Origin: Anaerocolumna cellulosilytica
GTDB taxonomy: Bacteria > Bacillota > Clostridia > Lachnospirales > Lachnospiraceae
DNA length: 64,000 nt
Direction: 5' to 3'
Assembly: GCF_014218335.1 (NCBI RefSeq)
Contig: NZ_AP023367.1
Location: forward strand, 2,047,501 to 2,111,500
Positions 2,511 to 31,371 of the stretch are shown in pieces. Every line of letters begins with the position of its first letter. The first letter of the stretch is position 1. Position numbers and translations under genes: made by a program. The notes beneath the pieces are model-generated. The model did no database searches. It was not told the DNA's origin and was given only the letters and a program-made list of their open reading frames with translations.

Positions 2511-2512
2511 AT

Positions 2513-3490
2513 ATGGAGATTACAAAAATAAATGCAAAGGTATGGTCTAGAATTGGTCAGCGTGAAACATTTGGTATGGCATTACTAGAACTAGCAAAAG
2601 AAAATAAAAATCTTATGGCCCTTACTGCAGATGTCTCGTCATCAGCTGGTCTAAACAATTTTATTAAATCATTGCCGGAGCAATTCATTGATGTTGGTAT
2701 TGCAGAACAAAATATGATGGGGATTGCTGCCGGGCTTGCGAGTGAAGGATATGACGTTGTAACAACTACTTTTGCACCATTTCAGACAATGCGCTGTTTT
2801 GAGCAGATAAGAGTAAACTTGGGTTATATGCAAAACAAAGTATGTATGGTCGGATTGGCAAGTGGACTTTCCTTAGGAAACCTAGGAAGTACGCACTGTT
2901 GTTTTGAAGATATGGCAATTATGAGAGCAATACCAAACATTGCAGTTGTTTCACCTGCTGACTGTGGTGAAGTTGTTAAGGCATTGGAGCAAGCCGTTAA
3001 ATATGACACCTCTGTATATATACGTTTGATGGGAAGGGAAAAAACACCTATTGTATATAAGGACGAGTATGAGTTCGAAATTGGTAAAGGAGTGTTACTT
3101 CGCGAAGGTAATGATCTTACTATTTTTTGCATAGGTACAATGGTTTCCCAAAGCTTGCAGGCTGCAGAAATATTGGAAGAGTATGGATACAAGCCTCGGG
3201 TTGTTAATATGCATACTGTGAAACCAATTGACCAGAATATGATTTTAAAAGCATGCGAGGAAACAAGATTGATTGTTACAGTAGAAGAACATAATATTGT
3301 CGGGGGATTAGGAAGTGCTGTTGCAGAATATAAATCGACATTACTTGATACTCCACCTCATTTATTCCTAGGAATACCTGATATCTACCCAAAAGGTGCT
3401 GGATATGAGGAATTGTTAAATCATTTTGAACTTACCGCAGACCAGATTGCTCGGAGAATCTTAAGTCAACTTGAAAGTGGGGGAATATAA
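2513..3490 (+). CDS. Transketolase-like, C-terminal (Pyr and C) subunit
   Basis: 325 residues making up the pyrimidine-binding and C-terminal domains of the split transketolase. DVGIAEQNMMGIAAGLA contains the conserved Glu that activates the TPP aminopyrimidine, and TFAPFQTMR follows as in the family. It starts 2 bases after the N-half with GGAG upstream, and its stop overlaps the ATG of the next gene, indicating one operon. The pair should form a heterotetramer. It could also be the housekeeping split transketolase, but the setting between an ACP and a radical SAM gene favours a pathway-specific role. Confidence 0.88.
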   Translation: MEITKINAKVWSRIGQRETFGMALLELAKENKNLMALTADVSSSAGLNNFIKSLPEQFIDVGIAEQNMMGIAAGLASEGYDVVTTTFAPFQTMRCFEQIRVNLGYMQNKVCMVGLASGLSLGNLGSTHCCFEDMAIMRAIPNIAVVSPADCGEVVKALEQAVKYDTSVYIRLMGREKTPIVYKDEYEFEIGKGVLLREGNDLTIFCIGTMVSQSLQAAEILEEYGYKPRVVNMHTVKPIDQNMILKACEETRLIVTVEEHNIVGGLGSAVAEYKSTLLDTPPHLFLGIPDIYPKGAGYEELLNHFELTADQIARRILSQLESGGI

Positions 3491-4791
3491 TGCTGTTTAT
3501 CGAGAAAGTAATGAAAGAGATATGGAAGCCATATGCTGACGTATACAAAGATAAGTTGAAAGAATATAGTAAATACGACGAAGAAACACTGAAAGACATT
3601 ATAAAAAAAGGAATCGATAATTATAAGTATCCTGCCAACACAAACCAGATTGTACGGATGACCAGTATGATATCATGTGGGTGCCCCCATTGGCGTGGTA
3701 ATCATGCGTTAGGTGGTTGTAGTTTTTGTGATTTTTTTACACAGACATTTGAGGTGTTTATTTTGGCAGAGGCTTTAAAAAGAAAAAATGTAGCTTCCTA
3801 TGCTGAAATGGTTCGTTATAGTTTTCAAGTACAAAGAGGCGAAAAGGTGAATCCACTGCCAATTGAGTTTATTACTGTTTTTGATACCATGAACGAAAAT
3901 GAATTTGGCAATATCGTATTTAATGAACTTTTCTCAGATCCCCCATTGTATAATCAAGAAATAAGGACCTTAGTTTGTGAAACAAGAATTAATAGTATTA
4001 CGGAAGAAGCTGTTCTGTTATGGAAATCTAAGGCAAGAGATGACTTAGTCATTGAAAGCGGCATAGAGGTGGGAAATGAGTGGTTACGAAATCATTGGTT
4101 AAATAAGAAAATTACAGATGTAGAAATGTATCAGGCATGGGATATTATACATAAAGCGGGATGCTCAGTAAACAGTGATATACTTTTTGGAATTCCGGGC
4201 ATAACCGAAAGGCAATCGATTGAGTTATTTAAGTACACTTATAAAAAATTAACGGATTCAAATTCCTTTGTTGTGTCTCCTTTGCTCTGCAAAGGAAATG
4301 ATTTACAGAGCAATATAATAAAACATTTTTCTGAAGATAAAGAAATGATTAGAATAGGAGTAATAAAAAAGGAATTATCAGGTATGCCACATATTCTTTC
4401 TTTATTAACTGCTTTTCATGAGTTATTTACTGAGGATGAAACATTAATAAAAAAATTAGGTTTAGCGCAGAGGCATTTTAGTGAATACTATTCAAAAATT
4501 ATATATCGATTTCGGAAGAGTGAATATTATCCCCTAGTAGATTCTATTATTCAAGTTCTAACTAATATGTGTTTAACACAAAATATTGATGATCTAAGAG
4601 ATTTGTATGATAAAATCATAAGAACCGATTTTTATCACAGATACTTAGAACAACTAAGCCTGGAATATGGTATGGAACAATTAAATGAAACATTACACAT
4701 AGTAGCAAAAAAATTATCCAATGTATATTCGAATGAGGAAGGCTTTAAAGAATTTGAGAAAGAATTATCTGACTTTAATTTTCAGTACTAA
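3490..4791 (+). CDS. Radical SAM-type protein with unusual cysteine spacing
   Basis: 433 residues. Near residue 63 there is a cluster CGCPHWRGN then GGCSFCDF, giving Cys63, Cys65, Cys77 and Cys80. The terminal CxxC with aromatic spacer is like a radical SAM [4Fe-4S] site, but the canonical Cx3Cx2C is absent; the spacing is closer to archaeosine-synthase-type variants (Cx(n)Cx2C). Further on, VIESGIEVGNEW resembles the SAM-binding GIES region of Elp3/MiaB-like proteins. The ATG overlaps the stop of the transketolase subunit. A SAM-radical step is likely; the reaction is unknown. Confidence 0.65.
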   Translation: MLFIEKVMKEIWKPYADVYKDKLKEYSKYDEETLKDIIKKGIDNYKYPANTNQIVRMTSMISCGCPHWRGNHALGGCSFCDFFTQTFEVFILAEALKRKNVASYAEMVRYSFQVQRGEKVNPLPIEFITVFDTMNENEFGNIVFNELFSDPPLYNQEIRTLVCETRINSITEEAVLLWKSKARDDLVIESGIEVGNEWLRNHWLNKKITDVEMYQAWDIIHKAGCSVNSDILFGIPGITERQSIELFKYTYKKLTDSNSFVVSPLLCKGNDLQSNIIKHFSEDKEMIRIGVIKKELSGMPHILSLLTAFHELFTEDETLIKKLGLAQRHFSEYYSKIIYRFRKSEYYPLVDSIIQVLTNMCLTQNIDDLRDLYDKIIRTDFYHRYLEQLSLEYGMEQLNETLHIVAKKLSNVYSNEEGFKEFEKELSDFNFQY

Positions 4792-4812
4792 AGTGTACAG
4801 ATGGGAGAAACT

Positions 4813-5553
4813 ATGAATTATCAAATACATGGGTATGATAAAGACTCAAAGTGGATTTCGGATATTCAAAGAATTAATGATAAATCATGGCCTAAATTCA
4901 TGCAAGGTGAAAATGTAATGAGAAGTTACTGGGGCTTCTTGCTTAGCAGCTTCCATAAATATCAACATGTATTAGCAATTGACGATTTAATAGTTGCTGT
5001 AGTTAATTCTGCACCATTTAAACTTGGAGCAGATATATACAAATTACACGAAAATGGTATTTATTGGGGGTTGAAACAAATTTCTCATAATTATTATAAC
5101 GAAGTGGAACCAGATACCCTAATGGCTTTACAAATTGTAGTAAATCCTGATTTCCAAGGGAAAAAGATTAGCTATGAATGTTTAAATCTTCTCAAATCAC
5201 TTGCATATGAACAAGGTTTTGATAAAGTCGTAATCCCGATAAGACCTTCATTAAAACATTTATATCCTCTAATGGATATGACAGAATATATTGGTCTAAA
5301 AGATAAGGATGGATTTCCGTATGATCCCTGGCTGAGAGTACATATGAAAGCAGGGGGAAAAATAGTGAAACAATGTAGAGGAATATCAATACAGGCTTCC
5401 GTTTCGGAGTGGGAAGAGTGGACTGGATTACACTTTGGATTCTCAGGAGAATACGTAGTACCTGGGGCTTTAAAACCTGTATATGTAGATTTGCATAAAA
5501 ATTTGGTTACGTATAGTCAGGACAATGTATGGGTAGCCCATTTTGTGAAATAA
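4813..5553 (+). CDS. GNAT-family acyltransferase-like protein
   Basis: About 246 residues. The segment ALQIVVNPDFQGKKIS has the GNAT motif A pattern (beta-4, then Q-x-x-G-x acyl-CoA pyrophosphate loop). ATG 4813 is chosen because GGGAG lies 6 bases upstream; an earlier in-frame ATG at 4801 has no Shine-Dalgarno. In hybrid PKS/NRPS clusters, GNAT-like domains can load or decarboxylate acyl starters, or N-acylate amines. This gene could supply an acyl starter to one of the carrier proteins, since no acyltransferase domain is seen elsewhere. Fold call is good; substrate unknown. Confidence 0.7.
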   Translation: MNYQIHGYDKDSKWISDIQRINDKSWPKFMQGENVMRSYWGFLLSSFHKYQHVLAIDDLIVAVVNSAPFKLGADIYKLHENGIYWGLKQISHNYYNEVEPDTLMALQIVVNPDFQGKKISYECLNLLKSLAYEQGFDKVVIPIRPSLKHLYPLMDMTEYIGLKDKDGFPYDPWLRVHMKAGGKIVKQCRGISIQASVSEWEEWTGLHFGFSGEYVVPGALKPVYVDLHKNLVTYSQDNVWVAHFVK

Positions 5554-6545: not shown

Positions 6546-7598
6546 GTGGATAGTAGATTACACATCATAAATAATTTAAATTACGATATACTATATCAAT
6601 GTTACGATGATGTTTATCGTTATATAAAGAACCATAAAAGTATAGCGAAAGGAAAAAGGATTGCGATAAAACTGAATCTTGTAGGACCTCATAAACCAGA
6701 AGCGGCGGCAACAACTCATCCGGAGGTAGTAAGTCTAATTGTAGATATACTTATTTCTTTGGAATGTGAGGTAATGCTTTGTGAGGATATTGATGGTATA
6801 TCCATTCTTGAGGAAACAAAAATATTACCTATATTAAAAAAGTATGGGCTCTCCTTTTATAATTTAAGAGAATATGGTTATAAGAGCATCGAAGCTTTTG
6901 GAGAAACATATCAATACTCTGAATTAATTGACACATGTGATGTATTTATTGAAATACCAAAGTTTAAGACGCATATGTTAACACACTATACTGGAGCAAT
7001 AAAGAATTTATATGGTTGTATTAAAAGAAAACAGAGAAAAGATTTACATAAAAATATTGATGAGGATGATTTTGCTAAGATTATTTGTTCTGTTTATTCT
7101 ATCAGAAAACCGGATATTGTTATTATGGATGCAATAACAGCTATGGAAGGATGGGGTCCTTCCTTAGGACAACCAAAATATCTAGGAAAACTAGTTTTAA
7201 GTACAGATGGAGTCCTGGTTGATTATTATCTTGTTCTAACAGCAGGTTTTAAACCAGAGCAACTAAAAACCTTGCAGAATGCTATAAAAAGACATCTTAG
7301 TGAATTCGCGTCTGAAGAAGATATTTTTCAGTACTGTAGTCCTTATGTGAAGGAAGAAAAATTTAATAGACTTCCAGTATATTTTGGCAGACAACGTGAA
7401 AAATATATTGAGATTTTACGAAGATCCTTGCATATCAACCAGGATGAATGTATACATTGCGGAAAATGTAAAGATGCTTGTCCTTTCAATGCAATCGACA
7501 TGGAAAGTAATATGTATCAATGTAATTCTGAAAAGTGCAATTTATGTACCTGTTGTCTGGAATTATGTCCGGTGGGAGCAATTCGGCTCAGACTATAA
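6546..7598 (+). CDS. DUF362 protein with C-terminal ferredoxin domain
   Basis: 350 residues starting at GTG 6546, with AGGGGG 8 bases upstream. The first 270 residues match DUF362 (KLNLVGPHKPEAAATTHPEV; EIPKFKTHMLTHYTGAIKNLYG). The C terminus has two four-cysteine [4Fe-4S] motifs, CIHCGKCKDACP and CNLCTCCLELCP. DUF362-ferredoxins are uncharacterised iron-sulfur proteins of anaerobes, thought to act in electron transfer or Fe-S enzyme chemistry. It is coupled to the preceding gene by 2 bases. It could supply electrons to the radical SAM or U32 proteins; that is inference. Confidence 0.82.
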   Translation: MDSRLHIINNLNYDILYQCYDDVYRYIKNHKSIAKGKRIAIKLNLVGPHKPEAAATTHPEVVSLIVDILISLECEVMLCEDIDGISILEETKILPILKKYGLSFYNLREYGYKSIEAFGETYQYSELIDTCDVFIEIPKFKTHMLTHYTGAIKNLYGCIKRKQRKDLHKNIDEDDFAKIICSVYSIRKPDIVIMDAITAMEGWGPSLGQPKYLGKLVLSTDGVLVDYYLVLTAGFKPEQLKTLQNAIKRHLSEFASEEDIFQYCSPYVKEEKFNRLPVYFGRQREKYIEILRRSLHINQDECIHCGKCKDACPFNAIDMESNMYQCNSEKCNLCTCCLELCPVGAIRLRL

Positions 7599-12735: not shown

Positions 12736-12773
12736 TAGTTAGAATATATTAAAAGAGCAGGATGGAGACAAGT

Positions 12774-14429
12774 ATGATAATAGATTGTGTATTGATTGGT
12801 TTTAATGATGAAAAAACGGAAGCAACTTTAAAAAAAACGGAGGCATACAAAAATAAGGATGCCGCCCATAATCATGAAATATCAAGGTCTGCCATAGTAG
12901 ATGGACATATAATGAAATACTCGGACTTGGTACGGGAGAGTATTAGTCGTGCAACAAGAATGAAAAGTGATTTATCCATATACCGTATGCCTAATATAGA
13001 TGTACATGATTTACACCATTATTTAAAGAAAAGGAATATACATGCAGCAATCGTAAATGATTTCACATTAGATAAGAAAAAGCTTACATATCTACTTCGA
13101 AATTCAAGTCCTAAATTAGTGGGGATTTCTTCTACCTGTGTTGTTGAAGCAGAGCCAATAAGAGAGATGGTTGATTTTATACGAAATATAAACCCGACTA
13201 TTCCTATTGTAGTTAGAGGTCCGTTTATAAATAATATTAATTATGAATATCAGAATTATAAAAAGATAGCTTTGTTACAAAGGATGGGAGCAGATATTTA
13301 CATACATGAACGACAGGGTGAAAAAACACTGCATAATATATATTTGGAACTATGTAAGGAGAAGCCAGATTTATCCAGAGTACCAAATATATTATATAAA
13401 TCTAATATACAACTATATAATTCTGAACATAAAATTTTAAGAACGATTAAAGTACCTGAAAACATACATCTTGATGATGAGCCTGTGAAGGAGCTTACGT
13501 TTTATGGGAATCATATAAAACCACCTGTTTATATACGAACAGATGTAAGCTGCGTACATAATTGTACGTATTGCCCATATCCAATATCAGGCGATGACGT
13601 TATGTATTCCAGTTTGGATTCCATTGAAAAAAATCTAAATTACATACATAGTCTTGGAGTCAAATATATTATTTTTAGGGATGTTTCATTGAATAAATCT
13701 TTGGAGCGTTTTAAAAGCATTCTTCGAATGATGATAAGAAACAAATATGACTTTAATTGGTTTTCATACTTTATTATTTCCCACTCAGATGATGAAACAT
13801 ATGATTTGATGGAACATTCTGGCTGCAAAGGGGTAATCCTGGACATAGACTCTGGTGTGGATACAATACTAAAAAATATGGACAAGCAGGTTACAAGGAA
13901 GAAGTTAGCTTGGGGAATTAAGAAGCTAAAAGAGCATAATATTATTAGCTATGCTTCTTGCACTATAGGATTTCCTGGTGAAACGGTTGAAACTGCAAAG
14001 GAGACAATACAATTTATTGAAGACTACCGTCCTACATTTTATGATTTGCAATGCTGGTTTTATGATAATACCAGTCCAATAGCAAAAGAAAAAATATATT
14101 ATAACTTAGAGGGTTCTGGTTACACATGGTCACATAAAGATATGGATAGCAGTTTAGCAAGTGACATTGTTTTTCATGGTATAAAAAAAATAACCAATTC
14201 GTATTTTATGCCATCAACATCTTTTAATCTTTGGTCGCTTGTGTATTATCTTTCACAAGGAGCAGAATTAGAGGAATTTTTTGAATTTTCAAAGATTTAT
14301 AAACAAGTAATTGGCTATGAAAAAGCGGATTTGGATAAAAAATATATAGATAATATCAATGAAATAATGGGAGTATTTAAAAATAATATAAAATTATATG
14401 AGAATCTAATGATGCGCAATAAACAATAA
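12774..14429 (+). CDS. B12-binding-type radical SAM enzyme
   Basis: About 551 residues. An N-terminal cobalamin-binding-like Rossmann part (AIVNDFTLDKKKLTYLL; KLVGISSTCVVEAEP; IPIVVRGP) precedes a classical radical SAM core with Cys260-x3-Cys264-x2-Cys267 (DVSCVHNCTYCPY). LDIDSGVDTILKNM and GFPGETVETAKETI fit later core strands. ATG 12774 is preferred (GGAG 6 bases before) over 12762. The family includes class B methylases and ring- or carbon-rearranging enzymes. The common DxHxxG lower-ligand motif was not evident, which is frequent in B12-radical SAM proteins. Substrate unknown; it may act on an ACP-bound intermediate. Confidence 0.82.
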   Translation: MIIDCVLIGFNDEKTEATLKKTEAYKNKDAAHNHEISRSAIVDGHIMKYSDLVRESISRATRMKSDLSIYRMPNIDVHDLHHYLKKRNIHAAIVNDFTLDKKKLTYLLRNSSPKLVGISSTCVVEAEPIREMVDFIRNINPTIPIVVRGPFINNINYEYQNYKKIALLQRMGADIYIHERQGEKTLHNIYLELCKEKPDLSRVPNILYKSNIQLYNSEHKILRTIKVPENIHLDDEPVKELTFYGNHIKPPVYIRTDVSCVHNCTYCPYPISGDDVMYSSLDSIEKNLNYIHSLGVKYIIFRDVSLNKSLERFKSILRMMIRNKYDFNWFSYFIISHSDDETYDLMEHSGCKGVILDIDSGVDTILKNMDKQVTRKKLAWGIKKLKEHNIISYASCTIGFPGETVETAKETIQFIEDYRPTFYDLQCWFYDNTSPIAKEKIYYNLEGSGYTWSHKDMDSSLASDIVFHGIKKITNSYFMPSTSFNLWSLVYYLSQGAELEEFFEFSKIYKQVIGYEKADLDKKYIDNINEIMGVFKNNIKLYENLMMRNKQ

Positions 14430-15675: not shown

Positions 15676-18414
15676 TTGAATCGTGAAGTCAAATACAATA
15701 TTCTCAAAACAAGCCATAAGTTTCATAAGCAAAGACGGTACTGGGAAAATAAAATAAATAACATATGCATAAATGACGGATATACAGTAAAGCAAAAAGG
15801 TGACAATCAGGAGTCTAAAAAAAGTACATATTCTTTTAAAATAGAGAAAGAGCTGTATAGGAGAATATATGAACTTTCCAATAATGATTGGAATAGTGTA
15901 TTTGCTATCCTATTATCAGGTATTGTATTTGTATGGGGGAAATGTTTTGGAAAAAAAACCTTTTCTGCAGGTACACCAGTTTTTAGCAAGCATAATCAAT
16001 CAATTAGTGATTTATTGATTATTTATATACTTTTTGATTTAAATAAAACATTTAAAGAATTTTTATATCATATACGTCAGGAATTAATTGATACATATGT
16101 GAATTCATCGTATCCAATAAATGAATTATTAAATGAGAAACCAAATAATATCTTTGATATTTTTGTAGAATTTACGAATATTCACAAAGTACCTCATAGG
16201 GCGGATTATAGAACCAATTTGTTTTTTTCCTTTAACGCAGATCAAGAGAAAGAAGAAATCACCGGAGAGATACAATATAATCAATCCCTTTTTCCAAAGG
16301 ATATGATTAAAAGTGTTACACGTATAATAATAAATTTTATAGATCAAGTAACCCACAATAAAGACATATCTTTAAGAGATATAGAACTAATGAGTTTAGA
16401 AGAGAAAAATAGTCAGTTAAAATTATTAAATACAGCAAAGAGTGTCAATTTACCTGATGGTTCCTTATACTCATTAATTGAAAATAAAATGCTTCAATCG
16501 TGTACGAAAAATGCCCTTATATTTGGCGATGATAAGATGAGTTATAAACAGTTGGGAGAAAGAGTAAATGAAACGTACATTACCTTAAAACAAACAGGGG
16601 TTAAAAAGGGGTCGGTTGTAGTTATCAATATAAGCAGAGGTTTTGATTTAATTACTACAATACTATCCGTATTAAAATGTGAAGCAATTTGTTTGCCAAT
16701 AGACAATAAAACGCCAGAAGCCAGAATGAAATACATGATAGAAAATGCTAGTGCAGATTTTATAGTGCATAATAAGGAAGGCGTAGTAGAGTGCAGCAAA
16801 TGTATAGTAAACTCAATAAAACAGGTACACAATGAATGTATTTATATAATTTACACTTCAGGATCTTCCGGTACTCCCAAGGGAGTTATGTTAAGTGAAA
16901 AGGGAATAAAGAACCATGCTTTTGCTAAGATAAAAGATTTAGGAATAACCTCTTTAGATAGGGTTGCTTTTAATTTTAGTATAAATTTTGTTGCCTCCAT
17001 CTGGCAGATAATAAGTCCATTACTAGTTGGTGCTGAAATCGTCATATACAATGATGATGTCCTAAAAGATTCCTATGATTTTATGAAAAAAGTTCAACAA
17101 GACAGGGTAACAACTTTGGCACTTGTTCCATCATCACTTCATACTTTTTTATTACATATAGAACATGAAAGTGAACTGATTGATTTACATGATTTGAATA
17201 CATTACTTTTAACAGGTGAAAAAGTGCCAGCAGAATTACCACAACGTTTTTATCGTTATTACAGTACTAAACTTATGAATGGCTATGGGCAAAGTGAGTG
17301 TTGCGATGACACACTGCATTATATAATACCTAATAATCAAATGGATAAAGAAGTACCGATTGGACGTCCCATCACCAATACACGCGTCTATATTTTAGAT
17401 ACCAACAAAAAGATGTTACCCATAGGTTTTCCGGGTGAATTATGTATTACAGGTGATTGTCTGTCTTTTGGATACTTAGACGATAATGAACTAAATAAAA
17501 AACGCTTTATATCTCTGATGGAATACGAAAGAAATAATTTCGTTTACTGCACAGGAGACATCGTGAGATGTTTAGAAGATGGTACTATTGAATATATTGG
17601 GAGAAGAGATAGACAAGTTAAAATCAGAGGGTATCGAATTGAAATCGAAGAAATAGAAGCCAGGCTAAAAAAGCACCCTGAAATTAATGATGCGGCAGTT
17701 ATTGTGAAAGATAGCCAAGATGAAAAATATCTATGTGCATTTATTGTATCATGCTTAAAAGAAATTCAAATTAAAGACAATTTAAAAGAATGGCTACCGG
17801 AATATTTGATTCCTTCTAAAATTGTAGTTGTAAATGAGCTGCCTGTATTACCAAGTGGAAAAATTGATTATTGTTCATTGAATCAGGTAGAATGCAGCCA
17901 TATAACAAACGAATTGCAATTAATTGAAATGACACCTTTTCAAAAAAAGCTGAAAGAAATATTTTGTTATGCATTAAATATCAATGACATTGGTATGGAT
18001 GATAGCTTTTTTGACATGGGGGGAGATTCTCTAAATGTTATTAAAGTTACCTTTCATTTAACAGAATATGCAATTGAAATTCATGCTAAGGATGTTTATA
18101 AGTATTCCACCATAAGAAGCCTAAGTAAATATATTATTGAAACTCATCAAATTGATTCAAAGGAGATTGAATATAAAGTAAGAGAAATATGGATAAAATT
18201 ATTAAAAAAATCCGAAATAGACAATAATATAAACTTTTTTGATTTAGGCGGCTCTTCATTACTTATAACAGAAATGCTAACAATGCTAACAGAAGTATTT
18301 CGAATTGATATAAATATATCAGATATTTTTGCTTATTCTACTATAAAAGACTTATCGGAATATATATATTGTCTGCAATGTAAGAAAGAGAGGATTTTAT
18401 ACGAAAATGTCTAA
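15676..18414 (+). CDS. NRPS: half condensation domain-A-PCP-PCP
   Basis: 912 residues from TTG 15676 (GAGGAGGT upstream). Residues about 30-240 match only the C-terminal half of a C domain; the HHxxxDG half is missing. The A domain (about 255-740) has YTSGSSGTPKG, NGYGQSE, YCTGD and SGKIDY with Lys729. Two tandem carrier domains follow, with Ser785 (GGDSL) and Ser861 (GGSSL). The Asp235 position is Val; my hand-read code is about VAWALTGDDK. Loss of Asp235 means an alpha-amino group is probably not recognised. Val235, Trp239, Asp331 and Lys517 agree with the published beta-alanine code VDWVISLADK as I recall it. PanD in the same cluster fits beta-alanine activation (inference). Confidence 0.88.
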   Translation: MNREVKYNILKTSHKFHKQRRYWENKINNICINDGYTVKQKGDNQESKKSTYSFKIEKELYRRIYELSNNDWNSVFAILLSGIVFVWGKCFGKKTFSAGTPVFSKHNQSISDLLIIYILFDLNKTFKEFLYHIRQELIDTYVNSSYPINELLNEKPNNIFDIFVEFTNIHKVPHRADYRTNLFFSFNADQEKEEITGEIQYNQSLFPKDMIKSVTRIIINFIDQVTHNKDISLRDIELMSLEEKNSQLKLLNTAKSVNLPDGSLYSLIENKMLQSCTKNALIFGDDKMSYKQLGERVNETYITLKQTGVKKGSVVVINISRGFDLITTILSVLKCEAICLPIDNKTPEARMKYMIENASADFIVHNKEGVVECSKCIVNSIKQVHNECIYIIYTSGSSGTPKGVMLSEKGIKNHAFAKIKDLGITSLDRVAFNFSINFVASIWQIISPLLVGAEIVIYNDDVLKDSYDFMKKVQQDRVTTLALVPSSLHTFLLHIEHESELIDLHDLNTLLLTGEKVPAELPQRFYRYYSTKLMNGYGQSECCDDTLHYIIPNNQMDKEVPIGRPITNTRVYILDTNKKMLPIGFPGELCITGDCLSFGYLDDNELNKKRFISLMEYERNNFVYCTGDIVRCLEDGTIEYIGRRDRQVKIRGYRIEIEEIEARLKKHPEINDAAVIVKDSQDEKYLCAFIVSCLKEIQIKDNLKEWLPEYLIPSKIVVVNELPVLPSGKIDYCSLNQVECSHITNELQLIEMTPFQKKLKEIFCYALNINDIGMDDSFFDMGGDSLNVIKVTFHLTEYAIEIHAKDVYKYSTIRSLSKYIIETHQIDSKEIEYKVREIWIKLLKKSEIDNNINFFDLGGSSLLITEMLTMLTEVFRIDINISDIFAYSTIKDLSEYIYCLQCKKERILYENV

Positions 18415-21480: not shown

Positions 21481-22470
21481 ATGTCAGATTATTCTTCTGC
21501 ACAAAATAAAATAGGTGCATTACCTTGTTTTTATGCAAATTTAAAACATTTATTAGAAATGCATGAAATCGTATTGACGGAAGCAGACATTTATTTTCTC
21601 TGCGGATACTTCAGCCCGGAAAGCATAGATAATGAATCGAAATATAGATTAAAATATCCGTCATATGCAGTACAATTGCATAATTTTTGTATGCGTACAT
21701 ATATAGACTGCGAAATGAATTTCGACGAAAATAGTAATTATATTTCTTCAGAAATTAATCAAGATCTTTTTCAAGATAGAAAAGTATTATTAGCAGTGGA
21801 TGCAAAAGTATTGGATCATTTAATCATTCAATCCTATGCCAGAAATTGTCACTTTCTTATTTCTACAGGATTAAATCCGAAAAGCCATATCTGTGTTTCG
21901 GATTTTTTTGTTATTGATAGGGAAGGGAAAGTTAACACATATGTAGGTGAATACCAATACAATTGTATTAAGGATGCTCTTTATGGATACATATATATGA
22001 AAAATATAGATAAGAATCTGGTTGACAAAGCGGTTAACAACATGGTGGATTATGTGGTACAAGAATTAGAAAGACTGCTGTATAAGACAGAAGATGGATC
22101 ATTATCAGGACTAGGGCTTCTTGAGAGCCTATTAAATAGAATTGGGAAAGAAAGCTATGAAGACTCATTCATAGAAAAGGAATCCTTTTACAACTTGATT
22201 ATGATACTTATCTCAAGACATATCATTTTTTTTGATTATATTTGCGATTTTATGAATCAATATCAAGTAAAAGATGGTGAGAATATGACACAAAAATTTA
22301 TGAAAATCAAGAATTCATGGGATAAAATAACCAATATGATGGCGATTCAAACATTTGCTTATAATTATAAGAGAAATAAAGCCATCTCATATGAAGCAGG
22401 GGAACTAATAAAGCAACAACAAAATTTACTATTACAGCTAATAACCAACCTTAGAGGAGACAGAATATGA
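21481..22470 (+). CDS. BtrH-like cysteine-peptidase-fold protein (copy 2)
   Basis: 329 residues preceded by AAAGGAG. Cys16 (GALPCFYANL), the strand VLLAVDAKVLDHL, His124 (NCHFLISTGL) and Asp in ICVSDFFVID reproduce the pattern of the BtrH N-terminal domain, including the VDxxxL segment. Copy 1 has Cys14/His124 at matching spacing. The C-terminal 170 residues are helical without known motifs. By analogy with BtrH, and with cysteine-peptidase-fold amide synthases in closthioamide biosynthesis, it may transfer a carrier-bound acyl chain to an amine. The gene overlaps panD by an ATGA. Confidence 0.55.
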   Translation: MSDYSSAQNKIGALPCFYANLKHLLEMHEIVLTEADIYFLCGYFSPESIDNESKYRLKYPSYAVQLHNFCMRTYIDCEMNFDENSNYISSEINQDLFQDRKVLLAVDAKVLDHLIIQSYARNCHFLISTGLNPKSHICVSDFFVIDREGKVNTYVGEYQYNCIKDALYGYIYMKNIDKNLVDKAVNNMVDYVVQELERLLYKTEDGSLSGLGLLESLLNRIGKESYEDSFIEKESFYNLIMILISRHIIFFDYICDFMNQYQVKDGENMTQKFMKIKNSWDKITNMMAIQTFAYNYKRNKAISYEAGELIKQQQNLLLQLITNLRGDRI

Positions 22471-22823
22471 TTGAATTGCTAAAATCGAAAATACACAGAG
22501 CAGTAGTAACAGATGCTAATATTAATTATGAAGGCTCCATCACAATCGGGGAAAGACTTATGGAAAGTGCAAGGATTCTTCCTTATGAAAAAGTAACAGT
22601 AGTAGATATTCAAAATGGGAATCGTTTTACTACTTACGCTATTAAGGGCAAAGAAGATCAATCCATCTGTGTAAATGGAGCAGCTGCCAGATTAGTCAGC
22701 ATCGGAGATCAAATCATTATTATGGCCTATTGTTTCGTTAATGAGACAGATTATAAAAAGAGTTATGAACCTAGGGTTTTATTAGTAGATTCATCGAATC
22801 AAATAATAAAACAAGAGAATTAA
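22467..22823 (+). CDS. panD: Aspartate 1-decarboxylase (pyruvoyl enzyme)
   Basis: 118 residues, full length for PanD. KSKIHRAVVTDANINYEGSI contains the self-cleavage site Gly23-Ser24, which yields the pyruvoyl cofactor, and NGAAARLVSIGDQIIIMAY is a family signature. It converts L-aspartate to beta-alanine. Location matters: it overlaps a BtrH-like gene and is followed by the U32 gene, with no panB or panC nearby. This points to beta-alanine supply for the NRPS rather than pantothenate synthesis, although it could also support phosphopantetheine demand. Confidence 0.95.
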   Translation: MIELLKSKIHRAVVTDANINYEGSITIGERLMESARILPYEKVTVVDIQNGNRFTTYAIKGKEDQSICVNGAAARLVSIGDQIIIMAYCFVNETDYKKSYEPRVLLVDSSNQIIKQEN

Positions 22824-22848
22824 AATAAATTAATACGGGGTGAAATCT

Positions 22849-23919
22849 ATGGTGTCTTATAGTGTGCCTAGTGATTTTTGTAGCAATACGTTAAAAAAGC
22901 TTAATGAAATCAATGGCTTAAAGAGTAAAGGTTTTATATCTGAAGTGTATGGACAAGTAACAGAGGGAACATTTATTGCTTCTGGCAGAATGCCATCATT
23001 ACTTCCTCAAGTAACTATGAAGCAATTAGAGGTATATTTGGAATCGTGTAAGAAATACAATATAAAATTTAATTACACTTTAAATGCATCTTGCATGTCA
23101 AATAAGGAATTAATACATATAAAGGAATTAAAGCAATTCATTTCTGAGCTGTACCAGATGGGAATACGGTCATTTACAGTTACACTGCCAACATTAATGG
23201 ATACTATTAAGAGCATGTATGATGATGTAGAAATAAAAGCCTCAGCCATTTGTGAAATAAACAGCCCAGAAAAGGCTAGTTATTATAAGGAAATGGGTAT
23301 TAGTAGAATCGTTGTAGAACCGGATATAACTAGAAAATTTGACATACTTGAGAAAATATGTAAGGTGTTTGGTGATGGGGTAGAGATTATTGTGAATAAC
23401 ATGTGTCTCAAAGGCTGTCCATATAAGATGTTTCATTATAATTTTGAGTCCCATGGGGAACAAATGAAAGAGCATAGTAACTATTATTATCATAAATGCA
23501 GTTTACAAAAAGCGAATAAAGCATATAACTATATAAAATTAAATTGGATACGACCTGAGGATATATACCGATATTCGAGTATCGGAATCAAATCTTTTAA
23601 GATTCAAGGAAGAAATAATAAAAATGGAGACAATATTAATAAAATTATACAGTATTATCTTGAGGAATCATTTGATGGAAACTTGTTAGACTTATTAACA
23701 CTATTTACGCCATATAATTCATTTCAGCCTTATATAGATAATAAAAAATTAGACGGATTTTTAGAACCATTTTATCAGAATAAAGATTTTTGTACCGGTT
23801 TATGTGATACTTGTTTGTACTGTATGGATTATGCAAAAAAGAGTATGGATGTATCAGAGTTAAAGACATTAAACCAATATGCAACACAATTTTATGAGAA
23901 AGTAAATCGTCTTGATTAG
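22849..23919 (+). CDS. U32-family Fe-S protein (copy 1)
   Basis: About 356 residues of the U32 'peptidase' family, whose members UbiU, UbiV and RlhA are Fe-S proteins used in oxygen-independent hydroxylation. The core cysteines appear in NNMCLKGCPY and YYHKCSLQK, and IRPEDIYRY...FKIQGR is a family signature. A further motif, Cys315-x3-Cys319-x2-Cys322-x2-Cys325, lies near the C terminus and could bind a second cluster. ATG 22849 is preferred over GTG 22840 because GGGGTG precedes it and the start then aligns with copy 2. Family secure; hydroxylase role is inference. Confidence 0.85.
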   Translation: MVSYSVPSDFCSNTLKKLNEINGLKSKGFISEVYGQVTEGTFIASGRMPSLLPQVTMKQLEVYLESCKKYNIKFNYTLNASCMSNKELIHIKELKQFISELYQMGIRSFTVTLPTLMDTIKSMYDDVEIKASAICEINSPEKASYYKEMGISRIVVEPDITRKFDILEKICKVFGDGVEIIVNNMCLKGCPYKMFHYNFESHGEQMKEHSNYYYHKCSLQKANKAYNYIKLNWIRPEDIYRYSSIGIKSFKIQGRNNKNGDNINKIIQYYLEESFDGNLLDLLTLFTPYNSFQPYIDNKKLDGFLEPFYQNKDFCTGLCDTCLYCMDYAKKSMDVSELKTLNQYATQFYEKVNRLD

Positions 23920-25309: not shown

Positions 25310-26626
25310 ATGCAGGCGATTCAATCAATTTCCAGGTTATTGCCAATACAGAAATCCATATTATATACCATGCTTCGTAATAAGGATTCCGATTTTTATC
25401 TAGAGCAATGCTGCTATCGTTTAAAGGGTAAAATTGATATAGAAAAGGTGGAGCATGCATGGCAGTATGTGGTTAATAAACATGATGCATTAAGAGGATA
25501 TTTTGTTTGGCATAAACTTAGGGAGCCGGTATTTGTTATACTAAAAGAAAAGAAGATAAAGTGTATTATTTGTGATATAAGACAGTCAGAAGATATGCAG
25601 GAAGATAAATGCAGGCATGAACGTATACAGGAATGGAATAAAGGGGTTGATATTACAGTCGATCCTATGCGTATCACAATTTTGATCCTATCGGATACAG
25701 AATGTGAAATGATTATTACTTTAAATCATATCTTATTTGATGGCTGGAGTAATGCAATTATTATGAATGATTTTTATCGATATTATTTATACTTAATGGG
25801 GGAAGCTATAATTTTCCATGATAAAACAACAAGTGTAAACTATAGTAATTATATAAAGCATGAGTTAAAAAGAACGGATAATCCACAATGTATTGATTTT
25901 TGGAAAAGGTATTTATCTGATTTATCGGGTAAGGATTATCCGAGTATTTATGGAAAAAAACAGATGGAAGAGGAAAAATTAAAAATTCCTGAAGAAGTTT
26001 TGAATAAAGTAAATAAATATTGCAAATTACATTCGGTTAGCTTTGCTAATCTTTTTTATTTATTATGGGCTTTTATTGAAAGTACTGAGGGTGGCTGTAA
26101 GGATGTTTGGGAGGCTGTCACTCTTTCTGGAAGAGATATGAATGATATGGACTGTTTGAACGGTTTAGTGGGGGTGTTTATTAAAACGATGCCGTTGAGA
26201 ATCAGATGGGACAGTCAATCATCCATGGAGAGCTTGTTTATAAAAATAAAAAAGGAGTTATGGGAAATAGATAAGCATAAATATATTTCTGGTCTAGAAC
26301 TGTTTAACTTGAATCCAAAACTGAACGCAGCCATGAATAAAATTTTGGTGGTTCAAAACTATCCTGTTGATTCCATATTGGTATATAAGGAACGAGTAGT
26401 CTCTATAGAATTGGTATCCTCTTTTTACAAACCCGATGCTGACCTTATCGTATCAAATAGTACATTTAGAGATTCAAATTATATAAAGCTTCTCTATAAC
26501 AACAAGATATATACAGCGAATCATATTAACAAGATTGGTAATAAATTTTTACAGGCGTTTCAATATTTAGCGGATAACAGTGATAAGCAAATAACAGCAG
26601 AGATGATATGTAATTGTATAAAATAA
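25310..26626 (+). CDS. Free-standing condensation domain
   Basis: 438 residues, the size of a single NRPS C domain. The active-site motif reads NHILFDG: the first His of HHxxxDG is Asn139, while the catalytic second His140 and Asp144-Gly145 remain, so activity is plausible. GVFIKTMPLRIRWD matches the second conserved C-domain block. GGGAGG lies 6 bases before ATG 25310. It could complement the half C domain at the start of the 15676-18414 NRPS, or join the product of the free KS to an amine. Confidence 0.88.
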   Translation: MQAIQSISRLLPIQKSILYTMLRNKDSDFYLEQCCYRLKGKIDIEKVEHAWQYVVNKHDALRGYFVWHKLREPVFVILKEKKIKCIICDIRQSEDMQEDKCRHERIQEWNKGVDITVDPMRITILILSDTECEMIITLNHILFDGWSNAIIMNDFYRYYLYLMGEAIIFHDKTTSVNYSNYIKHELKRTDNPQCIDFWKRYLSDLSGKDYPSIYGKKQMEEEKLKIPEEVLNKVNKYCKLHSVSFANLFYLLWAFIESTEGGCKDVWEAVTLSGRDMNDMDCLNGLVGVFIKTMPLRIRWDSQSSMESLFIKIKKELWEIDKHKYISGLELFNLNPKLNAAMNKILVVQNYPVDSILVYKERVVSIELVSSFYKPDADLIVSNSTFRDSNYIKLLYNNKIYTANHINKIGNKFLQAFQYLADNSDKQITAEMICNCIK

Positions 26627-26645: not shown

Positions 26646-27767
26646 ATGAGCTATTTTAGTATTCCTGCTGATTTTAAAATAGAAACAGTAGATAAGTATA
26701 TTGATATAAATGAAAGATATGATGATCAAATTATTGAAACCTATGGTCAGATTAATAGCAAAGATAATTTGTTTGGTTCAGGGAGGCCTTGGGATCTTAT
26801 TCCATTAGTGGGATGGGGAGAATTGGAAAAATATATTTGCTATTCACAAAAAAACAATATTAAATTTAACTATGTACTTAATTCACTTTGTTTGGGAAAT
26901 AAAGAGTTTACTGACGAAGGAGTAGATGAAATCCTTTGTTTTATAAAACAATTGTATTCTATTGGTATTACTTCATTAACCGTTGCAATGCCTTCATTGA
27001 TTGAATTAATAAAATATACAGGTTTACCATTTGAGATAAAGGCTTCTACAATATGTAATATAACCAATAGTGATAGAGCAAAATCATATAAAACAATGGG
27101 TGTAGATCGAATCGTATTGGATGAAAGTATTAATAGAGATTTTAATGAGTTAAGAGCTATACGAAAGGTTTATGGAGAAAAGGTTGAGTTAATTGCAAAT
27201 GTGATTTGCTATAAAAATTGTATCTATCGATTTTATCATCATAATCAAATGTCACATGATTGGGAATATGGCAAGAAGAATAGTATAGATTATTACTCAA
27301 ACAGATGTGCTCTAAAAAGAATGGATAAGCCAGAAAATATACTCAAGATGAATTTTATTCGACCTGAAGATATAACTTATTACGAAGATATAGGAATACA
27401 GTACTTTAAATTACAAGGAAGGCAGGCAGTTATGAAGGGAAATCTGCCGAAAGCAGTTGAATCCTATTTTAAGCGTTCTTATGATGGAGATTTACTGCTG
27501 TTGTTAGATAGTTTTACTCCCACGAATAATTTTCGTCAACCAATACATAACAAATCATTAGACGGATTTATTGAGCCTTTCTATAGAAATAATATATGTT
27601 CTAATAATTGTAGCCAATGTAATTATTGTTCTGAATTCTTTAGCCATAATTTTCTTGTTAAAGATACGATTGAAACAAATAATTTAGCGAAAACATATTA
27701 TTCATCGACGGATTCGTATATAAATAAAATCAAAAAAATTATGGGAGACAAAATAAATGGAGAATAA
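26646..27767 (+). CDS. U32-family Fe-S protein (copy 2)
   Basis: 373 residues, a diverged paralogue of copy 1: both begin SYxxPxDF and share YGQ, a GSGR-like segment and IKFNYxLN in order. Core cysteines are in NVICYKNCIY and NRCALKR, and the C-terminal set is Cys318-x3-Cys322-x2-Cys325-x2-Cys328, the same spacing as copy 1. FIRPEDITYY and FKLQGR are U32 signatures. UbiU and UbiV work as a heterodimer, so this pair may too. The gene overlaps the next large ORF by 11 bases. Confidence 0.85.
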   Translation: MSYFSIPADFKIETVDKYIDINERYDDQIIETYGQINSKDNLFGSGRPWDLIPLVGWGELEKYICYSQKNNIKFNYVLNSLCLGNKEFTDEGVDEILCFIKQLYSIGITSLTVAMPSLIELIKYTGLPFEIKASTICNITNSDRAKSYKTMGVDRIVLDESINRDFNELRAIRKVYGEKVELIANVICYKNCIYRFYHHNQMSHDWEYGKKNSIDYYSNRCALKRMDKPENILKMNFIRPEDITYYEDIGIQYFKLQGRQAVMKGNLPKAVESYFKRSYDGDLLLLLDSFTPTNNFRQPIHNKSLDGFIEPFYRNNICSNNCSQCNYCSEFFSHNFLVKDTIETNNLAKTYYSSTDSYINKIKKIMGDKINGE

Positions 27768-30700
27768 GTTTCAGGATATAAACACTTTATCAAAAGGGGA
27801 TCAAGTAGAGTTACCCCCATTTGATATAAAAGAATTGTTTGAAAAAAGTGTGAAAAAATTTCCAGATAATACCGCTATAATAACTACAGCGGAAGTAAAG
27901 CAAAAAGATATGTTTAGAGGAAATGATATAAATTATAGGATAGAGGATATGCAAGGTTGTTTCCGCTTGCATATCTTTACATTAAGCAGGAAATTGAACT
28001 CACAATATACAGTATGGAGATCATCCGAGAATCATTGTTTGATTTTAAGTAATTCGGCATCTGATATACTTAAGAGAATGGACGGAAGTAAGAGTATTTG
28101 GGAAACTTACTTAGAACTTCAGGATGATTGTAGAGAATTAGTAATTGAATTCATACATATTGACAAACCGGTTTGTGTTGAACATCAATATAATGTAAGG
28201 TATGAATTGCAAGCATCAAAGTATGAGCATATTCATTGGTTAGTAAGCAAATTTTATCAGCTGGGATTTGTTGAAATTGTAAAGAAAAAAATGCATTTAC
28301 AATTAAAAAAACAAATAATTAATTGGAATCAAAATTTGAAAGGTTCTCCGAAAATGATTCTTAGTCAGAAGGAATGCTTGAAAACAGATATATTACTTCT
28401 GGGAGATAAACCGGGAACCGCTGCAGTGGGTTTATTATATTTGGCTTCCTATTTACAGAAAAATAATGTACAGGCCAGGTGTCTATTTGTTAACGAATGG
28501 TGGGAAAATAATAACTTTGAAGACGAATTGTATCAATTACTTGACGCATCACAGCCTAGTTATGTTGGGCTTAGTATGAAGTGGTTTCCGCATATTTATC
28601 GTGTATTACAAATGGCGAAACTTATCAAAAAGCATAATGAATCAATTAAAATTATTATAGGGGGAGATACGGCTTCTTATTTTGCAAAAGAATTTATTAA
28701 AGAGGAAGTAATTGACTATGTTGTGATAGGAGATGGGGAAGAGCCATTATATAAGATATGTCAAGGGTTTGATGATATACCAAATTGCATATATAAACGA
28801 AATAATGAAATAATAACGGGTGGAATTATGTTAGAACATAATTGCAGTGCGGAGTTGTTTCAAATTGATGAAATTGTATTAGATCCCCAAAACATAGTAT
28901 TTACTTCATTATATATACCAACTTCAAGGGGATGTACATATGATTGTATACAATGTGGTGGTACAAAAAAAATACAAAATGAAGTATATCAAAAAAACAA
29001 TTGTTCTTGTTTACGACCTTCTGAATTAGTAAGGAACGACATGATATGTACAATGCCATATACCACTGCTTATATGTTTAGTTTAAGTGGAGATGTTAAC
29101 GAAAACATTGATTATTTTAGAAAGGTATGGGAAGGCCTGGATTTAAGTGATACCTCATTAGCGTTGTTTGGTATTGCTTTGCCGGATGAAAACATATTAC
29201 GATTAGCTTGTGAAACCTTTAAATATGTTCGTTTGGGCATTGATATATGCAGTTTATCACAAAGGCAGCGAGAAAGTATAGCTGCACAAACAAATTGTAA
29301 ACCGCAGCCAACAGATGAAGAAATTATTTGTTTAATAAAAATATGTGAGGAATACCCTAATTGTGAGGTAGATATTCATACAATTGCTGGTATGCCTTAT
29401 TTAATTCCGAGTGATTTTGAAATGGGTAAAATATTTATAAAAAAACTGCTATCCTATAAATCATTTAAAAGTTTACAATGGGGGAAATTACATGCGCAGC
29501 CAGGCACTTCCTTAAGTCTTTCTGCGAGTAATTTTGATATGGATTCGACAGCTAAGACTTATTTGGATTTTTATTACTATAGTAAGCGTAATTATGAATC
29601 ACAAATATATCCTGAACAAGAAAATTATAATTATCCTTATGTTTATTACAAGGATAAGAAGCTAAACGAACAGATAATCCCCTATTTTATCCAATTAAGC
29701 CTGGATTTAGAACATACCATAACAAACAGGACGAAGTTAATATATGAAGAAATAGATTACGCAACTTTACATGAGGCTTCTGACAGAGTTGCAGCTTATT
29801 TAAGCTCAGTAGGAATCACTTCCGAAAACAATGTAATCCTCTTAATCAATCATCGTATTTTATTTGCAATTGGGTTATTAGCCTTAGTAAAATCAGGTAT
29901 TGCGTATATACCTCTTGATGAGCAATTTCACAAGGAAATGCTTCATAAGGTTAAAACAGAGGTAAGCTGTTCTGGAATTTTAAGTGATTGTACGTTAGAA
30001 GAGGGGAATTTAAGCATACCTATCAGTGACATAATAAATTTTGATATTGATATACCAATTATTAATAAAAATTATTATAATCATATTTTATATCGTATTT
30101 ATTCTTCCGGAACAACGAGCAATCTGAAAGTTATATCACTTAAGCAAAAAGGAATAATTAATTATACCTTATGGAGAAATGATAAGTACCGTTTAAAAGA
30201 GGACGATGTGATACTTCAGCTATTGTCAGAAGCATTTGATGGGTTTGGCTCTAATTTCTACTCCGCACTGTTATCTGGTGCAAAACTTTTAATGCCATCT
30301 AAAAAACATAATAAAGATTATATGCTAGTGCGTAATATGCTAATTGAACATAAAGTGACCAATATGAGTTTAGTTCCTATTATGTATGAATTAATGCTTG
30401 AAGTTTCGAAACAGCCATTTAAAAGTTTAAAATCTGTAGTTTTGGCTGGAGAAACAAGCTCACTTAATTGTATCAAACTAAGTAAGGAAATAAATCCCAA
30501 TACGATGTTGATAAGCGAATATGGACCTACAGAAAATAGTATTGCTTCGACAGCATACATCGGATTAGATGAAAAAACATTAAATTGCATTGGTAAACCA
30601 ATACAAAATGTAAATACATATATTATAACGAAGGATGAACATATAGCAGGTTTTGATGAAGAAGGTGAAATTTGCTTATCAGGTATTGGTTTATTGGATG

Positions 30701-31371
30701 GTTTTGAACTGGATTCGTGTGATTCTATTTATATGTATACGGATAGGAATGAACCGCTTTATCGAACAGGTGATTTAGGTATGTGGTGTAAGAATGGTAA
30801 TATAATATTTTTAGGTAGAAAAGACCGAAACATTAAATTGAGTGGAATAAAAATTCATTTAGATGATGTGGAAAGGGCTTTGCTAAGCAATGATGGAATT
30901 AAGGAAGCAGCAGTATTAGCAGCAAATGATAATATGATTGCATATGTTGTATTAAACCCAGATGGCAAACTTCATTACATTAAGCAAGGTTTAGAAACTC
31001 ATCTTGCTGCATACCAAATACCAAATCAATTTATTGTTTTAGATCAGCTTCCAAGATTGCCTGGAGGAAAAATAGATTACCAGCTACTAAAGAAAACATC
31101 AATAAATAGACAGGGAAATATGAATACGGAAATGACAGATACTGAAAAATGGATTTATTCACTTTGGGAACATCAACTTGGTAATAATCAATTTAATCAG
31201 TATGACAGTTTCTTTGATATTGGAGGTAATTCACTAATGATAATGAAAATTTATAATGAAATTAATAAAGATGAGGAAATTGTATCAGTTACAGATTTAT
31301 TTGAATATACCACGATTCAGAAATTAGGAGTTCATATTGATACTATTAAAAAAAATTCCTTCAGTTACTAA
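27757..31371 (+). CDS. Adenylation domain interrupted by PqqD-B12-radical SAM, plus PCP
   Basis: 1204 residues. Residues about 22-45 (KELFEKSVKKFPDNTAII) are a typical adenylation-domain N terminus, but the sequence then leaves the A domain. A PqqD-like stretch (about 60-140), a cobalamin-binding Rossmann domain (about 209-330) and a radical SAM core with Cys393-x3-Cys397-x2-Cys400 follow. The A domain resumes near residue 659 (TKLIYEEIDYATL) with YSSGTTSNLK, SEYGPTE, YRTGDLG and PGGKIDY. A PCP with Ser1159 (GGNSLMI) ends the protein. Asp235 is present (FDGFGS; hand-read code about DGSSVAEIAK), so an alpha-amino acid is expected. The fused radical SAM unit may modify the activated residue; this is inference. 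Confidence 0.88.
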   Translation: MENKFQDINTLSKGDQVELPPFDIKELFEKSVKKFPDNTAIITTAEVKQKDMFRGNDINYRIEDMQGCFRLHIFTLSRKLNSQYTVWRSSENHCLILSNSASDILKRMDGSKSIWETYLELQDDCRELVIEFIHIDKPVCVEHQYNVRYELQASKYEHIHWLVSKFYQLGFVEIVKKKMHLQLKKQIINWNQNLKGSPKMILSQKECLKTDILLLGDKPGTAAVGLLYLASYLQKNNVQARCLFVNEWWENNNFEDELYQLLDASQPSYVGLSMKWFPHIYRVLQMAKLIKKHNESIKIIIGGDTASYFAKEFIKEEVIDYVVIGDGEEPLYKICQGFDDIPNCIYKRNNEIITGGIMLEHNCSAELFQIDEIVLDPQNIVFTSLYIPTSRGCTYDCIQCGGTKKIQNEVYQKNNCSCLRPSELVRNDMICTMPYTTAYMFSLSGDVNENIDYFRKVWEGLDLSDTSLALFGIALPDENILRLACETFKYVRLGIDICSLSQRQRESIAAQTNCKPQPTDEEIICLIKICEEYPNCEVDIHTIAGMPYLIPSDFEMGKIFIKKLLSYKSFKSLQWGKLHAQPGTSLSLSASNFDMDSTAKTYLDFYYYSKRNYESQIYPEQENYNYPYVYYKDKKLNEQIIPYFIQLSLDLEHTITNRTKLIYEEIDYATLHEASDRVAAYLSSVGITSENNVILLINHRILFAIGLLALVKSGIAYIPLDEQFHKEMLHKVKTEVSCSGILSDCTLEEGNLSIPISDIINFDIDIPIINKNYYNHILYRIYSSGTTSNLKVISLKQKGIINYTLWRNDKYRLKEDDVILQLLSEAFDGFGSNFYSALLSGAKLLMPSKKHNKDYMLVRNMLIEHKVTNMSLVPIMYELMLEVSKQPFKSLKSVVLAGETSSLNCIKLSKEINPNTMLISEYGPTENSIASTAYIGLDEKTLNCIGKPIQNVNTYIITKDEHIAGFDEEGEICLSGIGLLDGFELDSCDSIYMYTDRNEPLYRTGDLGMWCKNGNIIFLGRKDRNIKLSGIKIHLDDVERALLSNDGIKEAAVLAANDNMIAYVVLNPDGKLHYIKQGLETHLAAYQIPNQFIVLDQLPRLPGGKIDYQLLKKTSINRQGNMNTEMTDTEKWIYSLWEHQLGNNQFNQYDSFFDIGGNSLMIMKIYNEINKDEEIVSVTDLFEYTTIQKLGVHIDTIKKNSFSY

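Follow-up and report, generated by a model that had tools for sequence, protein, structure and literature searches.

Interrupted adenylation (A) domains are a natural model for bifunctional NRPS modules. In TioN, TioS, KtzH, MarQ, McyA, and ColG, a tailoring enzyme lies inside the A domain and a peptidyl carrier protein (PCP) follows. The inserts described in the accessible part of PMC11355689 are methylases, oxidases, and ketoreductases, placed typically between core motifs a8 and a9 and sometimes between a2 and a3. An earlier note on the DNA studied here had named much the same kinds of insert (methyltransferases, monooxygenases, and ketoreductases). Our searches of open-access full texts turned up no description of a B12-radical-SAM insertion in an A domain. 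The protein reported here likewise has an enzyme within an A domain and a PCP behind it, but the enzyme is of the B12-radical-SAM type and stands before a1; it appears to be a variant beyond the inserts and sites named in that part of PMC11355689.

The window, as we call the whole analyzed stretch of 64,000 nucleotides, covers positions 2047501 to 2111500 of a one-contig genome of 5.43 Mb (G000:C1). Its open reading frame (ORF) at 27757-31371 (+ strand) is unbroken and encodes 1,204 amino acids. In this protein, a B12-radical-SAM enzyme of about 610 residues splits the A domain just ahead of motif a1, and the chain ends in a PCP. The parts are as follows.

27757..31371, + strand: interrupted A-domain protein, 1,204 amino acids, in the order A domain (N-terminal piece), possible PqqD-like part, B12-binding, radical SAM, A core, A C-terminal subdomain, PCP (ORF, domain matches, models)
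27820..27900, + strand: N-terminal A-domain elements, residues about 22-48, with ELFEKSVKKFPDNTAII at 26-42 (profile match; helix and strand in the model)
27934..28308, + strand: N-terminal part of the insert, residues about 60-184, a possible PqqD-like winged helix (weak matches: PDB profile, TIGR03859)
28393..28791, + strand: B12-binding domain, residues about 213-345 (PF02310; most conserved part)
28909..29706, + strand: radical SAM domain, residues about 385-650, CX3CX2C at 393-400 (TIGR04190; nearest solved folds)
29731..31071, + strand: A-domain core and C-terminal subdomain, residues about 659-1105, code DGSSVAEIA (PF00501, PF13193; GrsA alignment; core motifs)
31150..31329, + strand: PCP, residues 1132-1191, FFDIGGNSL (PF00550)

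The profile matches bear out most of what the earlier note had read from the letters. The A domain was said to resume near residue 659, and the Pfam AMP-binding match covers residues 659 to 982 (149.1 bits), followed by AMP-binding_C at 1038 to 1105 and, where a C-terminal PCP had been read, PP-binding at 1132 to 1191. Cobalamin-binding and radical SAM sequences were said to lie between the two A-domain halves; B12-binding matches at residues 223 to 331 (44.2 bits) and the NCBIfam B12/radical SAM family TIGR04190 at 224 to 565 (E = 8.8e-24). We put at roughly 0.55 the probability that the protein is a bifunctional NRPS loading unit, which would load an amino acid on its own PCP and modify it there with the B12-radical-SAM unit, probably by C-methylation. 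One chain would then activate, tether, and radically modify an amino acid, and, if this is true, an insert at a third site brings radical chemistry on unactivated carbon into the module in cis.

Distribution of the architecture

Homologues were sought in four sets of genomes, each count including the genome of the window itself. Among 98 genomes of relatives, 19 had some match at E ≤ 1e-5; besides the window protein these were weak (E of 1e-10 or worse). At the level of the order (392 genomes), 17 had a match at E ≤ 1e-10, with one further strong match, in G241 (E = 7.5e-125). Two genomes matched in the class (391 genomes; E ≤ 1e-15), the second being G571, and two in the phylum (398 genomes), where the second match was weak (9.5e-16, in a frame of 577 amino acids). 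Searches with profile A4 (threshold, E ≤ 1e-40) returned 1 of 22 genomes in the family of G241 (G241 itself), 2 of 11 in the family of G571 (G571 and G1196), 4 of 142 in the class of G1201 (three known genomes and G1318, with ten matches), 1 of 82 in the class of G1202 (itself), and 1 of 177 in the order of G1199 (itself). A pattern-limited scan across 84,980 species genomes turned up seven loci, from an uncultured Eubacteriales bacterium, Clostridiales bacterium IMSAG_013, three Candidatus Aminicenantes bacteria, Desulfosporosinus nitroreducens, and a Thermoplasmatales archaeon.

The same insertion, which the earlier note had thought worth seeking in homologues, is present in further genomes: we count 17 copies in 11 genomes of two phyla, Bacillota and Candidatus Aminicenantes (the window, L028, L026, L038, L029, L030, L031, L046, L032, L033, L034, L045, L047, L048, L049, L050, and L052), a count that leaves out the distant stand-alone enzyme of the Thermoplasmatales archaeon (L035). 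The insert is in frame with A-domain sequence in 16 of the 17 copies and in 10 of the 11 genomes, a recurrence that supports the loading-unit reading. In 12 of these 16 copies, A-domain sequence flanks the insert in frame on both sides; L047 has the left flank only, and L046, L048, and L049 have the right flank only, where contig ends or unknown bases cut the sequence short. The frame of L030 is broken late in the A domain, and in L038 the A core behind the insert is down to about 100 residues. The L032 enzyme, from Desulfosporosinus, is a stand-alone protein, and its gene is flanked by a chorismate pyruvate-lyase-like gene and an A-PCP-KS gene. L038 and L032 indicate that the insert can occur with no A activity in cis, which counts against the loading unit; the place of the L032 enzyme beside an A-PCP-KS gene speaks for it, since an adenylating enzyme and a carrier are still paired with it there although nothing is fused.

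The earlier note had also considered that an error might have made one gene of two. Because independent assemblies from both phyla show the same junctions, a gene-joining sequencing error is excluded; nothing was found in favor of an artifact of assembly or sequencing, and the probability that we assign to it is negligible. The insert also offers a sequence handle by which such assembly lines may be traced in Bacillota and Candidatus Aminicenantes.

Insertion site

The insert lies between the first A-domain strand and the a1 region (TYxEL). For the short piece in front of it, the opening 28 columns of six uninterrupted A domains from the studied loci were made into a profile. This was run against 126 long frames of these loci, with E-values set for 139, and against 630 shuffled proteins. 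Residues 26 to 42 of the window protein, within the stretch of about 22 to 45 that had been taken for an A-domain start, matched at 13.6 bits (E = 4.7e-4), and the best of the 630 shuffled proteins reached 3.0 bits. Matches were also obtained in L026 (26.9 bits), L050 (24.8 bits), L033 (24.2 bits), L031 (13.0 bits), and L052 (10.9 bits), so that the piece is picked up in 6 of the 13 copies with an N-terminal flank. In the other seven (L028, L029, L030, L034, L038, L045, and L047), the profile gave nothing above 3 bits, and the N-terminal piece of these copies therefore rests on alignment and position. Behind the insert, a profile beginning at the a1 region matches in 14 of the 15 copies with a right flank, L030 being placed by alignment only. 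In L026, about 650 residues separate the two halves of what is otherwise a textbook A domain (TLFELFEEQVERTPDSIAVCF ... FTYRELNEKANQLARHL).

Structure models were made by AlphaFold2 with 14 sequences. In the model of residues 1 to 1113 (pLDDT, 83.3; pTM, 0.77), residues 21 to 48 are confident, with a helix at 24 to 34 and a strand at 39 to 48; residues 51 to 59 are disordered, and a strand at 659 to 667 takes up the A domain again. From this arrangement, we infer that strands 39-48 and 659-667 pair as the two halves of one hairpin. The earlier note had asked whether residues 20 to 48 pack onto the A-domain core: the secondary structure elements and the resumption of the domain are present in the model, which to that extent favors such packing. 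The whole model matches A domains in Foldseek, in a sequence-order alignment that is blind to the packing of residues 20 to 48. An enzyme of 600 residues is tolerated in the loop before a1, which may be of use as an engineering site.

Adenylation domains

Specificity codes were taken by alignment at GrsA positions 235 to 331. The window protein shares DGSSVAEIA with L029 and L030; L028 has DGSSVAEVA, L034 has DGSSVAEVT, L026 has DGTITAEVA, and L052 has DGTIVAEVM. DLTKAGHIG was read in L033 and L048, DLTKLGHIG in L045, and DLTKVGHIG in L050, and the remaining codes are DAASVGEVT (L031), DSELTAEVC (L049), and DAFSRALVW (L046). We take DGTITAEVA to be a tyrosine code and DLTKVGHIG to be an aspartate code; a literature search for the tyrosine code returned no paper. 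The code of the window protein is near that of L026, and its substrate is therefore probably tyrosine or a close aromatic relative.

The window protein retains K791 of a3, YGPTE of a5, TGD of a7, and K1105 of a10, which we take to be functional A-domain core-motif residues, and their retention is in keeping with a loading unit. Its a3, however, is degenerate (YSSGTTSNLKV versus YTSGTTGxPKG) and its a8 reads IKLSG (versus IKIRG), changes that could impair the domain and that weigh against the loading unit. a3 is more mildly degenerate in L029 and L030, and a8 is also altered in L029. The A domain of the window protein could on these grounds be an inactive scaffold, with a different A domain charging its PCP in trans and the inserted enzyme acting there; other A domains exist in the cluster (window 15676-18414; L021), and the A core of L038 is truncated. 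We consider this quite unlikely, as the window protein keeps the a10 lysine and a readable nine-residue code, and a3, a5, a7, and a10 are usual in L026, L028, L034, and L052.

A tree was computed from 23 A cores, 14 interrupted and 9 uninterrupted, the latter all from the studied loci; four rows (a duplicate and three that were partial or odd) and four short matches were kept out of it. The 14 interrupted cores do not form one clade: the tree needs five changes, of which at least three are forced by supported branches, and a single clade is rejected (AU test, P = 1.05e-7), although 32 of 500 label shuffles need as few changes and the tree has long branches and two rows of odd letter makeup. 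One supported group holds the window, L028, L029, L030, L034, and L031 and a second the four Asp-coded cores, and L026, L052, L049, and L046 are placed among uninterrupted domains. A single origin of the interrupted A domains by descent was rejected on this result. The several clades and differing codes imply that the insert has moved, that A cores have been exchanged behind it, or that it has been lost repeatedly. Exchange of A cores behind a fixed insert, or insert loss, would explain the tree as well as repeated insertion does. We lean slightly toward a portable B12-radical-SAM module, used at one pre-a1 site in several lineages and specificities of two phyla, with activation, holding, and remodeling of the building block in a single chain.

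The inserted enzyme

By its domain order, its CX3CX2C motif, and its predicted fold, the insert is a B12-dependent radical SAM enzyme. C393, C397, and C400 are at the places given in the earlier note and are invariant in the 14 rows of the family alignment. PF02310 is found in 14 of 14 members. The radical SAM family PF04055 proved a poor detector: it is not among the matches of the window protein at E ≤ 0.1 and is found in 5 of 14 members at E ≤ 0.01, missing the other 9 inserts. All 14 members match TIGR04190 (B12_SAM_Ta0216; best E = 9.6e-47). Among curated radical SAM families it also ranks first for the window protein, at 84.0 to 86.8 bits, below the equivalog cutoff of 500; every curated match of this protein falls far below its cutoff. 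Identity to the window protein is 43 to 55% in the B12 part, 32 to 44% in the radical SAM part, 26 to 39% in the A core, and 9 to 20% in the first part of the insert. That the B12 and radical SAM parts are better conserved than the A core is a further point for the loading unit.

The earlier note had called the first part of the insert PqqD-like. Its best PDB profile match is indeed PqqD (5sxy), weak at an E of 0.25 over 28 residues, with a second PqqC/D chain (E = 1.9) among seven weak matches. TIGR03859 (PqqD) matches 2 of 14 members (best E = 0.0079). In Pfam, which is without a PqqD family, PaaA-like_N matches 1 of 14 members, and window positions 27910-28479 have no match at E ≤ 1. The label is possible on these weak matches.

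Modeled alone, the insert has a pLDDT of 86.5 and a pTM of 0.87, which also speaks for the loading unit. The nearest solved fold found by Foldseek is TsrM (E = 1.8e-14; TM score, about 0.5; identity, 14 to 15%), followed by MgmA, OxsB, CysS (E = 3.2e-12), TokK (E = 8.8e-12), MiaB, RimO, and MtaB. Nine of the best 18 PDB matches are B12-radical-SAM methyltransferases (TsrM, MgmA, CysS, and TokK), two are OxsB, and seven are methylthiotransferases (MiaB, RimO, and MtaB). TsrM methylates free tryptophan and, to our knowledge, is not fused to an A domain. CysS and TokK have other substrates and are free-standing; TokK acts on a substrate on a pantetheine arm, and CysS entries 9n1b and 9n1c contain a pantetheinylated substrate, a precedent for carrier-like substrates.

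The methyltransferase matches favor methylation, but fold similarity is no proof of it, as OxsB catalyzes a ring contraction. The unit could instead perform a rearrangement, a cyclization, or other bond-forming chemistry on the tethered residue or the growing chain. OxsB is among the nearest folds, the best curated match reaches only 86.8 of 500 bits, and one insert goes with several A codes, which also makes a single shared amino acid less likely as the substrate of the radical SAM unit and so counts against the loading unit as proposed. With half of the best 18 matches being methyltransferases, we regard this other chemistry as doubtful.

The first place of TsrM raises another alternative, in which the radical SAM unit modifies the amino acid while it is still free, the A domain activates the product, and the fusion only channels it. 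The window code would fit, differing from the presumed tyrosine code as if its pocket had been shaped for a changed residue. L026, however, retains that code unchanged, and the CysS entries point to a carrier-bound substrate. Methylase inserts of interrupted A domains, as described in the accessible part of PMC11355689, act after T-domain loading, on the carrier-bound residue, and this both speaks for the loading unit and leaves modification of the free amino acid unlikely.

In the favored loading-unit reading, the A domain would activate an amino acid, probably tyrosine or a close aromatic relative, and load its own PCP, whose arm would then reach the radical SAM/cobalamin site, with the possibly PqqD-like part perhaps helping to dock the carrier. 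There the tethered residue would be modified, most likely by transfer of a methyl group from methylcobalamin to carbon, and the modified residue would be used by a free-standing condensation (C) domain. A neighboring pair of U32 proteins may add a second iron-sulfur-dependent step.

Gene neighborhood

On the upstream side, the window has genes for KS, C, and PCP, for an aspartate decarboxylase, for two U32 proteins, and for a free-standing C domain, together with one that has a faint BtrH_N match (E = 0.027, below the cutoff). The nearest relevant genes are as follows.

22840..23919, + strand: second U32-family protein, a paralogue of the one below (PF01136)
25310..26626, + strand: free-standing condensation domain (PF00668; tblastn to L030, L022, and L026)
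26646..27767, + strand: U32-family protein immediately upstream, its gene sharing 11 bases with the interrupted A gene (PF01136)

A relative of the free-standing C domain is fused to the interrupted A domain in L026. In seven loci, a U32 gene is upstream of the interrupted A gene: it adjoins the latter in the window, L022/L028 (G241), L030, L031, L034, and L047, and in L046 a PhpK-like gene stands between the two. Paired U32 paralogues occur in the window, L022, and L030. No U32 gene was found in L026/L027, L029, L032, or L033 or in the 4.4 kb upstream in L048, and the flank is too short in L038, L045, L049, L050, and L052, the last three of which lack this stretch.

U32 oxidases hydroxylate without O2, with prephenate implicated as the oxygen source, and have the cysteine motif CX6CX15CX3C, according to the accessible part of PMC11574389. 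The neighboring proteins share PF01136 with UbiU/UbiV, RlhA, and TrhP and form a pair, as UbiU and UbiV do, but that motif is absent from all 10 aligned U32 sequences, two of them from the window. In its place are eight common cysteines, among them C188-X3-C192, C221, and C318-X3-C322-X2-C325-X2-C328, which make up a CX3C, a further Cys, and a C-terminal CX3CX2CX2C. Ordinary O2-free hydroxylation by these proteins is doubtful, as they lack the published motif. The G241 region contains a DAHP synthase gene (PF00793; 250.3 bits), which would fit U32 hydroxylation given the role suggested for prephenate in that part of PMC11574389.

Other genes of the window include a PhpK-family (P-methyltransferase) radical SAM protein at 12762-14429 (557.7 bits, just below the cutoff of 600), to which a protein upstream of the window (L021:8792-10423) is closely similar by eye. 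Aspartate 1-decarboxylase (panD; 22467-22823) lies inside the KS/C gene run and would supply beta-alanine. The A domain at 15676-18414 is preceded by no more than part of a condensation domain and followed by two carrier-protein matches, and its code reads as no usual one. A radical SAM protein at 3490-4791 is distantly like RaSEA/MnmL, and L029 and L030 carry relatives of it downstream of their interrupted A gene. At 6546-7598, the window encodes a DUF362 protein that has 4Fe-4S motifs.

In the Candidatus Aminicenantes locus L031, a second A domain (2342-5101) is interrupted further in, the AMP-binding profile resuming at position 151 and the insertion lying between a2 and a3 by eye. Its insert has radical SAM before B12-binding, opposite to the usual order and resembling a circular permutation. 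Another copy, at L031:19124-21330, comprises the A start and the radical SAM part and runs off the end of the locus. A ThiF (E1-like) domain (172.8 bits) is found at L033:12650-14800 inside a second A-domain-like sequence after the interrupted A domain, and the same arrangement is seen by eye in L045 and L048; the interrupted A domains of all three are Asp-coded.
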